A stretch of DNA of 64,000 nucleotides from Bacteroidota bacterium. Its GTDB lineage: Bacteria > Bacteroidota > Bacteroidia > UKL13-3. This document shows, piece by piece, positions 12,483 through 14,955 of this stretch (its first letter is position 1; every line of letters begins with the position of its first letter). The notes below the pieces were generated by a model. That model saw only the letters and a list, made by a program, of their open reading frames with translations. It searched no databases and was not told where the DNA came from. The DNA lies in contig JAUXUD010000022.1 in the NCBI GenBank assembly GCA_030680835.1, positions 62,001 through 126,000 on the forward strand, in the 5' to 3' direction. A program made the translations under genes and the position numbers.

Positions 12483-13256
12483 ATGAATTACAACCCTCAT
12501 TTACATCACAGAAAATCAATTCGTTTTCATGGGTACGATTATTCAAAAGAAGGTGCATATTTCATCACAATATGTTGCCTTAATAAAAAAAATCAGTTTG
12601 GTAATGTTTCCAATGGCGAAATGATTTTAAATGAATATGGTCAAATTGCACATAACGAATGGTTAAAAACAACAGAAATACGCCCCAATGTAAGATTGGA
12701 CGTTTTCATAATTATGCCCAACCACATACATGGAATAATTATCATTGATGATTCCCCGATTGATGGTAGGGGCGAATTGCATTCGCCCATTATCAATGAC
12801 AAACCGGATCCAATCGATGCATTAAAATCAAATTTACACCCGATTGATGGTAGGGGCGAATTGCATTCGCCCATTATCAATGACAAACCGGATCCAATCG
12901 ATGCATTAAAATCAAATTTACACCCCATTGATGGTAGGGGCGAATTGCATTCGCCCATTATCAATCGTAACCCCGTTTCCCCTATGAAATCATCCCATCA
13001 GAATTTGGTTTCACCCCGAAAGGGCGAATGCAATTCGCCCCTACGGTCACCATCCAATAATGTGGGTGCAATTATTCGTGGATATAAATCATCGGTTACA
13101 AAACAAATTAATTTAATTAAATCCGGTGAAACAATATGGCAACGGAATTATTATGACATTATCATACATGATGAACAATCTTATCAAAATATGTCTGATT
13201 ATATCATCGATAATCCTGCAAAATGGAACGAAGATGAATTTTATAACAAAACATAA
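12483..13256 (+). CDS. REP-associated tyrosine transposase (RAYT, Y1 family) with in-frame REP insert
   Basis: This 257-residue protein is an IS200/REP-type single-strand nuclease. Seen: N-terminal HHRKSIRFHGYDYS and AYFITICC, the HUH motif in MPNHIHG (His81 and His83), helix GAIIRGYKSSVTK (196-208), WQRNYYDIII, and DYIIDNPAKW with the likely catalytic Tyr240. Without residues ~91-190 its length would be typical for the family. That ~100-residue insert consists of a 28-residue tandem repeat (PIDGRGELHSPIIND...) plus a reversed segment, encoded by REP-like hairpins. No terminal inverted repeats or paired tnpB are visible, as expected for RAYTs, which act on dispersed REP elements rather than on an IS. 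The catalytic motifs are intact, so activity is possible. The gene is followed by a strong bidirectional terminator. Confidence 0.9.
   Translation: MNYNPHLHHRKSIRFHGYDYSKEGAYFITICCLNKKNQFGNVSNGEMILNEYGQIAHNEWLKTTEIRPNVRLDVFIIMPNHIHGIIIIDDSPIDGRGELHSPIINDKPDPIDALKSNLHPIDGRGELHSPIINDKPDPIDALKSNLHPIDGRGELHSPIINRNPVSPMKSSHQNLVSPRKGECNSPLRSPSNNVGAIIRGYKSSVTKQINLIKSGETIWQRNYYDIIIHDEQSYQNMSDYIIDNPAKWNEDEFYNKT
12766..12788 (+). repeat. REP-like hairpin 1 with 5' GTAG
   Basis: GTAG (12766-12769) is followed directly by GGGCGAAT-TGC-ATTCGCCC, an 8-bp perfect stem with a 3-nt loop. REP elements recognised by RAYTs characteristically carry GTAG next to the hairpin foot. Identical copies lie at 12850-12872 and 12934-12956. 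Confidence 0.85.
12850..12872 (+). repeat. REP-like hairpin 2 with 5' GTAG
   Basis: Second copy, 84 bp downstream of the first, with the same GTAG and 8-bp stem, translated in frame as GRGELHSP. Confidence 0.85.
12934..12956 (+). repeat. REP-like hairpin 3 with 5' GTAG
   Basis: Third copy with the same GTAG and stem, 84 bp further downstream. Confidence 0.85.
13022..13044 (-). repeat. REP-like hairpin 4, opposite orientation
   Basis: GGGCGAAT-GCA-ATTCGCCC followed by CTAC is the exact reverse complement of the three upstream REPs. On the plus strand it is still an open part of the RAYT frame (KGECNSPL). Direct and inverted REPs together resemble a BIME-like composite. Confidence 0.85.
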
Positions 13257-13260
13257 AAAT

Positions 13261-13286
13261 AAAAAACCACCCAAGGGTGGTTTTTT
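13261..13286. terminator. Bidirectional intrinsic terminator
   Basis: The stem AAAAAACCACC / GGTGGTTTTTT closes on a CAAG loop. It has a T-run on the plus strand and, read in reverse, a T-run on the minus strand. It lies between the convergent RAYT (stop 13256) and the T9SS gene (stop at 13303) and would serve both. Confidence 0.85.
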
Positions 13287-13302
13287 ATTTTTTAATGTAA
13301 TA

Positions 13303-14955
13303 CTATTTAATTACAACTAATCTTGAAGATACCATAGATTCGGCGGTGCTGATTCGTACAAAATATATCCCCTGAGGAATATCATTGATTTCAATATCAG
13401 TTGTGTTTTCTCCAGCAGAGAAATTTTGTGCATTTCTGTTCAAAATTATTTTCCCTGTTAAATCAATTAATTCAATGGAAACTGAATTTGAATTTTTCAG
13501 TTCAAATGAAATACTAAATCTTTCACTGGCAGGATTTGGATAAATAATTAATTGATTGAATGAGTTGTGGGATTCAGTGGTACCACTTGGAAAGTTTGAA
13601 CCTGATTTTGCAATTGAATTACTCATAGGAACAAAGCTTGGATTTGAATATAGGTACGGACGGGTAAGGTTTATCTCGTTTGATTGCTTTAAAGTATCTG
13701 TTTGGCCTGATAGTATCCATGCTACAACAGCAGATGAAGTTGTAATGCCTAAAGTATCGCTGTTGGAAGCCAGTCTGCCTGCCCAGCCTGAAGGAATTCC
13801 AGCAATAACATTTGATTTAAACACTGCGTTTCCATTTTGAAAATGAGAATTCGTAGCACGCGAATCAATAAATAAACCGGCCAATGGATAACCTGATAGT
13901 ATTGAGTTTACAATTGAAATAGCAGAATTTCTGCGAATATGTGCTGCCCGCTGAAAGTTGCTGTTTACGGTAGCTGTTTGTCCGTTATATAAAGGACCAA
14001 CCATGGTCATGTTCGAAAATACAGCCGATGTTCTGGGCATCCTGTATGAACCATTTGCATCATTATCACTTTCAAATCCATTGGAACCGCTTTGATCGGC
14101 ATTGGATGGAATGCGCACACCAATTCCAAATTGCACCAAACCTTTATATCCGTTGTCTGTATCAAAGTCATCATCAATACCTGCGTATGCAATTAAATGT
14201 TTGCAATTAACCGAACCTCCAAACCATTCATAAGAATCGTCACCTGAATACGAAACTTGAATATGATCAATCAGCGTTTTTCTACCCACTGAATAAAAAG
14301 TAATTCCATTGATTTCTGAATTGGCAGCAGTTGTTAAGGGAATGCCTGCAAACTCTATTCGGCAATACGTCATTATACCCGAGCTATCTTCATCATTATT
14401 TCCTCCGTGACGGCCATCTGTTTCACCTGCCCCTAAAACAGGTTTGGCAATACCTCCTTCGGCTGCAGCAGTATCTCCCTGAGGCAGGTTGTGAATTCCG
14501 CGGCCGGTTAAAATGATGCCACCCCAATCGCCGGGAGCTCTTAAACCAGCACCTTTACCTGATGTAAAAACAATAGGTTCAGCCAAAGTACCTTTTGCAT
14601 AAATTTTTGAACCGCGGCAAATAATAATGGCACCTTTGCCATTTCCACGAATCAATGTTCCGGCTTCAATAGTTAATGTAGCACCATTGGTTACATAAAC
14701 ATATCCATCATTTAACAGATAGATATTATTTTTGGTCCAGGTGGTATTGGTGGTGATATCACCCCCGTTAATGGTAACATTTGTGGTACCATAATTTGTA
14801 GTTGCCGGATTCCAGTTTGTCCATCCTTTGGTCCAGTCTTTTGTTGAGTCCGGATCCATTGCCCCTCTGTATATTGTGGGTGTAAAAAAGTTACTTTGCG
14901 CAAAGGTTAGTGATGCAAACAAAAGCATTAAAACACATGTAGTGAGTCTTTTCAT
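13303..14955 (-). CDS. Secreted T9SS type A protein with beta-helix-like body, partner of TonB receptor
   Basis: This 550-residue protein has a signal peptide (MKRLTTCVLMLLFASLTFAQ). Residues ~70-420 look like a right-handed beta-helix: successive strands such as VYVTNGATLTIEAGTLIRGNG, IYAKGTLAEPIVFTSG, WGGIILTGRG and an acidic run DDDFDTDNG. The C-terminus is a type A sorting domain (LIIYPNPASERFSISFE...GIYFVRISTAESMVSSRLVVIK). It lies 100 bp downstream of the TonB-dependent receptor on the same strand, so co-transcription is likely. This beta-helix type with a neighbouring receptor recurs in Bacteroidota; I infer that the secreted protein presents or captures the receptor's ligand, but the ligand is unknown. 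Confidence 0.85.
   Translation of the reverse strand: MKRLTTCVLMLLFASLTFAQSNFFTPTIYRGAMDPDSTKDWTKGWTNWNPATTNYGTTNVTINGGDITTNTTWTKNNIYLLNDGYVYVTNGATLTIEAGTLIRGNGKGAIIICRGSKIYAKGTLAEPIVFTSGKGAGLRAPGDWGGIILTGRGIHNLPQGDTAAAEGGIAKPVLGAGETDGRHGGNNDEDSSGIMTYCRIEFAGIPLTTAANSEINGITFYSVGRKTLIDHIQVSYSGDDSYEWFGGSVNCKHLIAYAGIDDDFDTDNGYKGLVQFGIGVRIPSNADQSGSNGFESDNDANGSYRMPRTSAVFSNMTMVGPLYNGQTATVNSNFQRAAHIRRNSAISIVNSILSGYPLAGLFIDSRATNSHFQNGNAVFKSNVIAGIPSGWAGRLASNSDTLGITTSSAVVAWILSGQTDTLKQSNEINLTRPYLYSNPSFVPMSNSIAKSGSNFPSGTTESHNSFNQLIIYPNPASERFSISFELKNSNSVSIELIDLTGKIILNRNAQNFSAGENTTDIEINDIPQGIYFVRISTAESMVSSRLVVIK

Follow-up and report, generated by a model that had tools for sequence, protein, structure and literature searches.

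In REP/RAYT systems, it is an open question by what means a transposase and the tiny, non-autonomous repeats recognized by it remain matched over long periods, and the RAYT gene described here raises this question within a single reading frame, since copies of its own REP lie inside the coding sequence. In-frame REPs between the HUH motif and the tyrosine are already published: Quentin et al. (2018) describe in-frame, in-gene REPs, generally located between HuH and Y, as predominant in TnpA_REP subclass 2.4, to which RAYT group 4 is assigned (PMC6006769), and the present gene is a further case. Are such copies passing insertions, or are they an inherited part of the gene? The gene was analyzed together with the 64-kb stretch of DNA around it (the window), the draft genome from which the window comes (G000, 104 contigs), and related genes and genomes.

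RESULTS

The RAYT gene and its product

The gene and its protein motifs are located in the window as follows.

12483..13256, + strand: RAYT / TnpA_REP gene, intact ORF, 257 aa (ORF; NF047646; fold match 4er8)
12717..12731, + strand: HUH motif P79-N80-H81-I82-H83; P79, H81, and H83 invariant and N80 nearly so in 49 sequences
12747..13061, + strand: in-frame insert, residues 89-193 (~105 residues), disordered in the predicted model
13137..13142, + strand: W219-Q220, nearly invariant in the 49 sequences; corresponds to the conserved WQ of subclass 2.4
13200..13202, + strand: codon of Tyr240, invariant in the 49 sequences

The 257-aa protein matched the NCBIfam model REP_Tyr_transpos (NF047646) with an E value of 4.8e-17, but the score of 62.2 bits missed the cut-off of 80 and the match was split into two stretches; a Pfam search of the protein alone gave nothing at E ≤ 0.001. 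In an alignment of 49 proteins that includes the window RAYT, all 49 matched NF047646 at E ≤ 0.001 and 31 of the 49 matched PF01797, and with the profile of this alignment the only sequence match in the PDB at E ≤ 0.001 was 4er8. The same entry, a RAYT bound to a REP hairpin, also came first when the predicted model was compared by fold (E = 1.3e-05).

The subclass 2.4 motifs NH[IFV]H and WQ are both present (NHIH and W219-Q220), and W219-Q220 is probably the counterpart of W94/Q95 in the Escherichia coli protein (PMC6006769). The Y---NP signature is found as YIIDNP, with Y240, N244, and P245 invariant in the 49 sequences, and by analogy to the family, Tyr240 would be the catalytic residue. 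This Y motif is one residue off the YIxNNP of subclass 2.4; alignment A1 has NNP in 9 of its 10 other rows. Judged from sequence and predicted model, the gene is thus an intact Y1 HUH RAYT whose core has the HuH motif and one Tyr. An insert of ~100 residues between the histidines of the HUH motif (His81/83) and Tyr240 had been noted in a preliminary description, and it was found again as the 105 residues from 89 to 193, with His81, His83, and Tyr240 invariant in all 49 sequences. The predicted model has neither helix nor strand between strand E81-88 and helix H194-212, and pLDDT block means are 41 to 66 over residues 91-190, compared to 90 to 98 over residues 21-90.

An inverted repeat with perfect 18-nt arms (window 13255-13292) lies at the RAYT stop codon and is probably a terminator common to the RAYT and the convergent gene. 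Further downstream (window 13303-14955, − strand), a 550-aa protein is encoded that has relatives in the genus (e.g., G001, G002, and G015); these are located in open frames of 1272 to 1356 aa with two tandem matches, and the window copy is a single unit.

Four REPs and an 84-bp tandem within the reading frame

The repeats within the insert are as follows.

12766..12788, + strand: REP copy 1, direct, exact 23-mer; 10 related genes have their first loop REP in this frame
12850..12872, + strand: REP copy 2, direct, exact 23-mer
12934..12956, + strand: REP copy 3, direct, exact 23-mer
13022..13044, − strand: REP copy 4, inverted, exact 23-mer; 3' tail like the tail common to the dispersed copies
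12755..12838, + strand: 84-bp tandem unit 1 (28 codons), 100% identity with unit 2
12839..12922, + strand: 84-bp tandem unit 2 (28 codons), 100% identity with unit 1
12923..12965, + strand: partial third unit, REP plus ~10 nt on each side; 43 nt in common with units 1 and 2 save for one mismatch, divergent beyond

The REP is the exact 23-mer GTAGGGGCGAATTGCATTCGCCC, present in three direct copies and one inverted copy, all within the ORF; the inverted copy has arms of 31 nt with 90% complementarity to each direct copy. It consists of GTAG, an 8-bp perfect stem, and a 3-nt loop (GTAG-GGGCGAAT-TGC-ATTCGCCC), and it has the GT[AG]G foot and the three G-C pairs at the bottom of the stem that are a trait of subclass 2.4 REPs. 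The four in-frame GTAG hairpins with 8-bp stems reported earlier, three direct and one inverted, are therefore all there, as four exact 23-mers within 12483-13256. At ≤3 mismatches, no GTAGGGGCGAATTGCATTCGCCC copy beyond these four was found in the 64-kb window, 100 dinucleotide shuffles of the window gave zero matches, and no other GT[AG]G hairpin with a stem of ≥7 was seen within ~1.2 kb on either side of the gene.

The 84-bp repeat is looser than in the earlier description: two units of 28 codons are complete and identical, and the third leaves the common sequence after 43 nt and has 63% identity over 84 nt. Two identical 84-bp units in a draft genome of 104 contigs might point to a misassembly, and apart from the window gene, none of the 117 related genes analyzed below has three direct loop hairpins. 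We nevertheless hold an assembly artefact to be most improbable: the frame is kept, the third unit differs, another RAYT (L213) has five in-gene copies, and the REPs themselves are independent of the tandem.

The REP family across the window genome

The preliminary description had proposed to count the 23-nt hairpin genome-wide and had named the lack of other copies as an outcome that would speak against it. In the whole G000 draft, 33 sites at ≤3 mismatches were found, and none with the reversed pattern; 29 of the 33 lie outside the RAYT gene, as do 5 of the 9 exact copies. With random placement, the chance of 4 of 33 sites in the 774-bp gene is 4e-11, or 1.5e-5 if, the tandem copies not being independent, two events of 31 are counted. 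At ≤2 mismatches, 24 sites lie outside the gene. In 15 of these, changes in one arm of the stem are matched in the other arm (GGCAAAT..ATTTGCC in 12, GGCGGAT..ATCCGCC in 2, and GGCCAAT..ATTGGCC in 1), as expected of a selected hairpin.

The stem variant GGCAAAT...ATTTGCC accounts for 16 of the 29 dispersed sites and is in-gene in none of the three RAYTs found in G000. The commonest dispersed variant, GTAGGGGCAAATTGCATTTGCCC, has 12 exact copies (on C4, C15, C29, C39, C57, C60, C81, C93, and C94) and likewise matches no in-gene REP of the three RAYTs. All 29 dispersed sites at ≤3 mismatches are single or in direct pairs (C6, 94 bp; C60, 60 bp), and none forms a close inverted pair, the arrangement of a REPIN. 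When a profile of the ~22-nt tail from 26 of the 29 dispersed sites was compared to 5000 random sequences, the inverted in-gene copy scored 14.5, a value reached by 0 of the 5000; the three direct copies do not clearly share the tail (p = 0.09 to 0.11). Eight of 26 outside sites checked overlap an ORF of ≥100 aa, most of them spurious-looking by eye. One REP, in L030 (G000:C57, 1491-2582), opens a predicted ORF of 364 aa that looks by eye like a sugar isomerase and whose true start is probably further down.

Of the two other RAYTs in this genome, L045 (G000:C61, 1471-2130) has a different in-gene hairpin, GTAGAGACGCGATTAATCGCGTCTC, of which two copies with a one-base difference lie in opposite orientations on the 5' side of the gene; L039 (G000:C56) has no in-gene hairpin and is accompanied by GTAG hairpins on both sides. 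Together with the window RAYT, one genome thus shows all three arrangements: in-gene only, in-gene plus outside, and outside only.

Recurrence in related genes

The sample comprised 117 intact related genes, 78 named and 39 from the family of the window genome. The 78 remained from 80 named loci after removal of L100, which has no intact ORF, and L141, which has no W motif, used here as the loop boundary. Identical or near-identical pairs (L105/L209, L117/L192, L086/L087, and L221/L222) were retained. A hairpin was defined by a GT[AG]G foot and a stem of ≥8 with ≤1 mismatch, and the loop as the part between HUH and W. Loop hairpins numbered 100, in 69 of the 117 genes (50 of 78 named and 19 of 39 family genes); these fractions are to be read with the choice of the sample in mind, since 20 of the loci behind the family genes were selected for long open frames and are thus biased to inserts, and the tblastn query that confirmed the named loci contains REP peptides and may favor REP-bearing loci. 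Twenty synonymous codon shuffles gave a mean of 5.35 loop hairpins and a maximum of 10. Outside the loop, 17 hairpins (shuffles, 1.05) were found in the N part and 1 (shuffles, 0.15) in the C part. Chance palindromes are ruled out by this excess and by the zero matches in the 100 shuffles of the window. Before the alphaC motif lie 94 of the 100 loop hairpins, in 65 of the 117 genes, so the homologue comparison suggested in the preliminary description reveals the insert site as a recurrent REP site; 5 of the 6 hairpins not placed there belong to genes whose alphaC was not recognized by the script (L107, L110, and L181).

Among direct copies, 0 of 57 use the frame that would read a TAG stop within GTAG, and the other two frames are used by 35 and 22; the inverted copies are distributed over the three frames as 30, 11, and 2. 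For 28 of the 100 loop hairpins, a copy at ≤3 mismatches is found outside the gene in the locus DNA, compared to 0 of 100 for the reversed hairpins. One RAYT of 368 aa, L213 (G036:C63), carries five inverted in-gene hairpins, a larger expansion than that of the window gene. Among the 26 genes with at least two loop hairpins, the order is direct-inverted in 21 and inverted-direct in 2; 2 more carry inverted hairpins exclusively, and the window gene combines three direct hairpins with one inverted. The direct-then-inverted order (22 of 26, window gene included) is a tendency and does not amount to 22 independent events, because the genes share ancestry.

This order bears on a possible autoregulation, in which the in-gene hairpins bind the RAYT as single-stranded DNA or fold in the mRNA and thereby limit expression of the transposase. 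In favor of it, single-strand folding of the window insert beats 200 of 200 shuffles (z = −5.79 as DNA and −7.92 as RNA), and a long stem is possible in the 22 genes with direct before inverted copies, compared to 2 with the reverse order. However, any inverted REP pair would fold in this way, the bias shrinks with the shared ancestry of the genes, and in 43 of the 69 genes, just one loop hairpin was detected (31 direct and 12 inverted). We therefore regard autoregulation as improbable.

The 17 hairpins before the HUH motif comprise 7 in a loop after beta1, 9 in N-terminal tails (7 labeled by the script, with both of L166 added by reading), and 1 (L148) that overlaps the HUH codons. Those in the tails may be flanking REPs behind a start predicted too early and were left out of the argument. 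The loop after beta1 is a second in-frame hairpin loop, 37 to 52 residues before HUH (L097, L099, L111, L128, L149, L085, and L208).

A tree was calculated, with the insert left out, for 109 of the 117 genes; the 8 rows omitted, 3 of them with a loop hairpin, lacked a recognized alphaC. On this tree, no fewer than 29 changes are needed to explain the loop hairpin, compared to a mean of 34.1 in 500 shuffles, 19 of which came as low; starred branches force 9 changes. Across the whole family, REPs therefore appear to come and go often, or to decay below the detection limit. Furthermore, different lineages use different frames for their loop REPs.

Conservation as DNA in the window lineage

Within the lineage of the window gene, 11 genes have the first loop REP in one frame, 11 to 25 codons past the start of the PNHxH motif. 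Over the 55 pairs of these genes, which were chosen because the REP is present, identity is 0.93 in the REP, compared to 0.65 for core nucleotides and 0.35 for fourfold-degenerate core sites. All 11 genes share the REP codons AGG, GGC, and CCC, and where A and T are exchanged in pairs across the stem, RGELHSP becomes RGVLHTP with the hairpin kept. Silent codons that are fixed and paired swaps that alter the peptide indicate that the hairpin is conserved more than the peptide. A non-palindromic codon choice in homologues, which had been proposed as counterevidence, was not seen; codon choice stays palindromic. Independent of the choice of genes, the seven best matches (L096-L102) all carry the REP or its T/A variant; in L100, the frame is interrupted.

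The conservation also bears on the idea that the insert is a protein domain selected for its peptide, with the palindromes as a by-product. RGELHSP or a near form does recur in the lineage, but the silent third positions are invariant in the REP at a core fourfold identity of 0.35, the compensatory changes alter the peptide and preserve the hairpin, the frames differ between lineages, and the insert is predicted to be disordered; on these grounds, a conserved protein domain was rejected. The drop from 100 hairpins to a mean of 5.35 after synonymous shuffling points in the same direction, which leaves this explanation scarcely credible. When silent sites of a coding stretch are conserved because of the DNA, annotation can be misled, as in the empty Pfam search and the split NCBIfam match below the cut-off.

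Relatives from several bacterial families have the same REP, or its paired T/A variant, in an identical frame, and hence, as far as sequences tell, the window REP is not a private event. It looks inherited and constrained as DNA and not like a recent landing.

Genomes in which all detected copies are in the gene

Among 62 genomes of the window's family, 3 hold the window REP at ≤2 mismatches: G000 (28 copies), G046 (2, both within its RAYT), and G014 (1, at the corresponding position of a RAYT remnant). In named relatives, all copies are in the gene in G064 (1 of 1), G067 (2 of 2), and G068 (1 of 1, frame interrupted); no copy lies more than 100 bp from the gene in G065 (3 of 4 inside it), G066 (1 of 3), and G070 (2 of 3); and copies farther off occur as well in G069, G071, G072, G073, and G074. 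Two further REP types have in-gene copies only in G077, G078, and G082 and copies farther away in seven genomes. The second REP type of the family was found in 11 of the 62 genomes, with a known in-gene copy in 4 (G029, G036, G039, and G044), all of which have copies elsewhere; in the seven other genomes, no gene is known to carry exactly this REP.

Over all searched patterns, 28 genomes have an in-gene copy. In 8 of them, copies were found in the gene or its remnant only, in 11 in the gene or within 100 bp, and in 17 also >100 bp away, with up to 51 such sites (G081); many of these genomes are draft or metagenome assemblies, in which repeats can be lost, and for G064, G077, and G078, the searched pattern reaches one of two in-gene arms only. 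Five of the 26 genomes searched individually have no copy in a RAYT and are not part of the 28 (G075, 1 copy; G088, 4 sites; G086, G087, and G089, none).

These distributions have to be weighed against a neutral history in which genomic REPs insert repeatedly, in-frame insertions in a flexible loop are the only ones to survive, and the in-gene copies are idle. It comes near to the published reading, according to which the variable region of subclass 2.4 is a peripheral extension with perhaps little impact on activity (PMC6006769). The predicted disorder of the loop, the seven further hairpins in the loop after beta1, the many gains or losses on the tree, the empty stop frame of the direct copies (0 of 57), and the REP types present in genomes with no known in-gene copy are all consistent with it. 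On the other hand, 8 of the 28 genomes have no copy found elsewhere that could act as a donor, REP conservation is far above that of silent core sites, and the frame is identical in 11 of 11 lineage members. We consider this history possible but unlikely. A recent landing from a genomic pool, as the sole explanation, is weakened by the genomes with in-gene copies only. With no copy elsewhere in some genomes and the REP in the same frame in several families, landing of a genomic REP in its transposase would not be the simplest history for the window lineage.

DISCUSSION

A probably inherited REP within the transposase gene

In sum, our data point toward a RAYT of the group 4 / subclass 2.4 kind whose own REP is rather likely an inherited, in-frame part of the coding sequence that is kept as DNA for self-recognition. 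In our model, the REP sits in the loop between HUH and alphaC, which is predicted to be disordered, so that extra residues would be tolerated. Recognition of a REP on single-stranded DNA has been shown for other RAYTs (PMC8266576), and by analogy, the product would most likely recognize its own REP, by GTAG foot and hairpin, on single-stranded DNA, as a one-piece REPtron. Selection for self-recognition or for onward dispersal may keep the hairpin sequence, and gene and REP would move together as a unit. The REP may then spread in some hosts, as the 24 other sites at ≤2 mismatches in G000 suggest; elsewhere, no spread is seen. Several observations speak against so simple a history: the many changes on the tree, the 17 of 28 genomes with copies >100 bp from the gene, the REP type found in genomes with no known carrier gene, and the GGCAAAT...ATTTGCC variant of G000, which is in-gene in none of its three RAYTs.

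L095 in G046, a relative from the family that shares this REP, carries one copy in direct and one in inverted orientation. The window gene may have grown from such an arrangement by later duplication of the 84-bp REP-to-REP unit, for which unequal recombination between direct REP copies would be the simplest route. Only multiples of three would survive in the loop, because the loop is translated. Of the expansion proposed at first, the sequence supports a local 84-bp duplication and nothing beyond it.

More tentatively, the coding sequence of group 4 RAYTs may serve as a heritable reservoir of REPs, in which enzyme and substrate are one overlapping DNA under selection for the protein core and for the hairpin alike. 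Such a DNA would move between hosts as a whole, a single gene could found a new REP population, and the number of REPs within the ORF could grow by steps of 28 codons. Genes whose only detected REPs lie inside the ORF would be natural test cases, because donor and enzyme are inseparable in them. New here are such genes, in which the in-gene REPs are the sole ones detected, and the conservation of the REP, as read from the alignments, at the DNA level; in the REP/RAYT literature consulted (passages of PMC6006769, PMC3733652, and PMC8266576), no statement was found of in-gene REPs as sole genomic copies.

Comparison with known systems

Rickettsia palindromic elements are also palindromes inserted in frame in genes (PMC3733652). 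Unlike the window REP, they are CGTC-tagged and found in various unrelated genes, and the CGTC repeats apparently have no dedicated transposase (PMC3733652). REPINs resemble the window insert, which in plan is an inverted REP pair (direct ... inverted); they differ from the dispersed sites of G000 at ≤3 mismatches, which are single or direct pairs and not close inverted pairs.

The RAYT of E. coli (subclass 2.2, PDB 4er8) shares the Y1 HUH fold and is the top match of the predicted model. Its chain of 165 residues would be too short for an insert of the window type, and E. coli REPs need a bulge for activity (PMC8266576), unlike the perfect stem of the window REP. The REPtron of Stenotrophomonas maltophilia has a 23-nt REP in which a perfect palindrome of 8 bp encloses a 3-nt loop (PMC8266576), which is the geometry of the window REP, but it belongs to another RAYT group (group 3), and an in-gene REP is not mentioned in the relevant part of its description (PMC8266576).

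The closest likeness is to subclass 2.4, whose range includes Bacteroidetes, Cyanobacteria, and other phyla (PMC6006769). In sequence, the window gene fits this subclass except for one residue of the Y motif (YIIDNP compared to YIxNNP) and the lack of flanking REPs; in the part of the description consulted, the in-gene REPs are additional to flanking ones, which is the usual state and is not stated to be obligatory (PMC6006769). The four copies with an 84-bp tandem also set the window gene apart from subclass 2.4 as described (PMC6006769). In common are the HuH, WQ, and Y motifs, the long variable region between beta3 and alphaC, the in-frame REPs between HuH and Y, and the long REP with three G-C pairs at the foot of its stem (PMC6006769).
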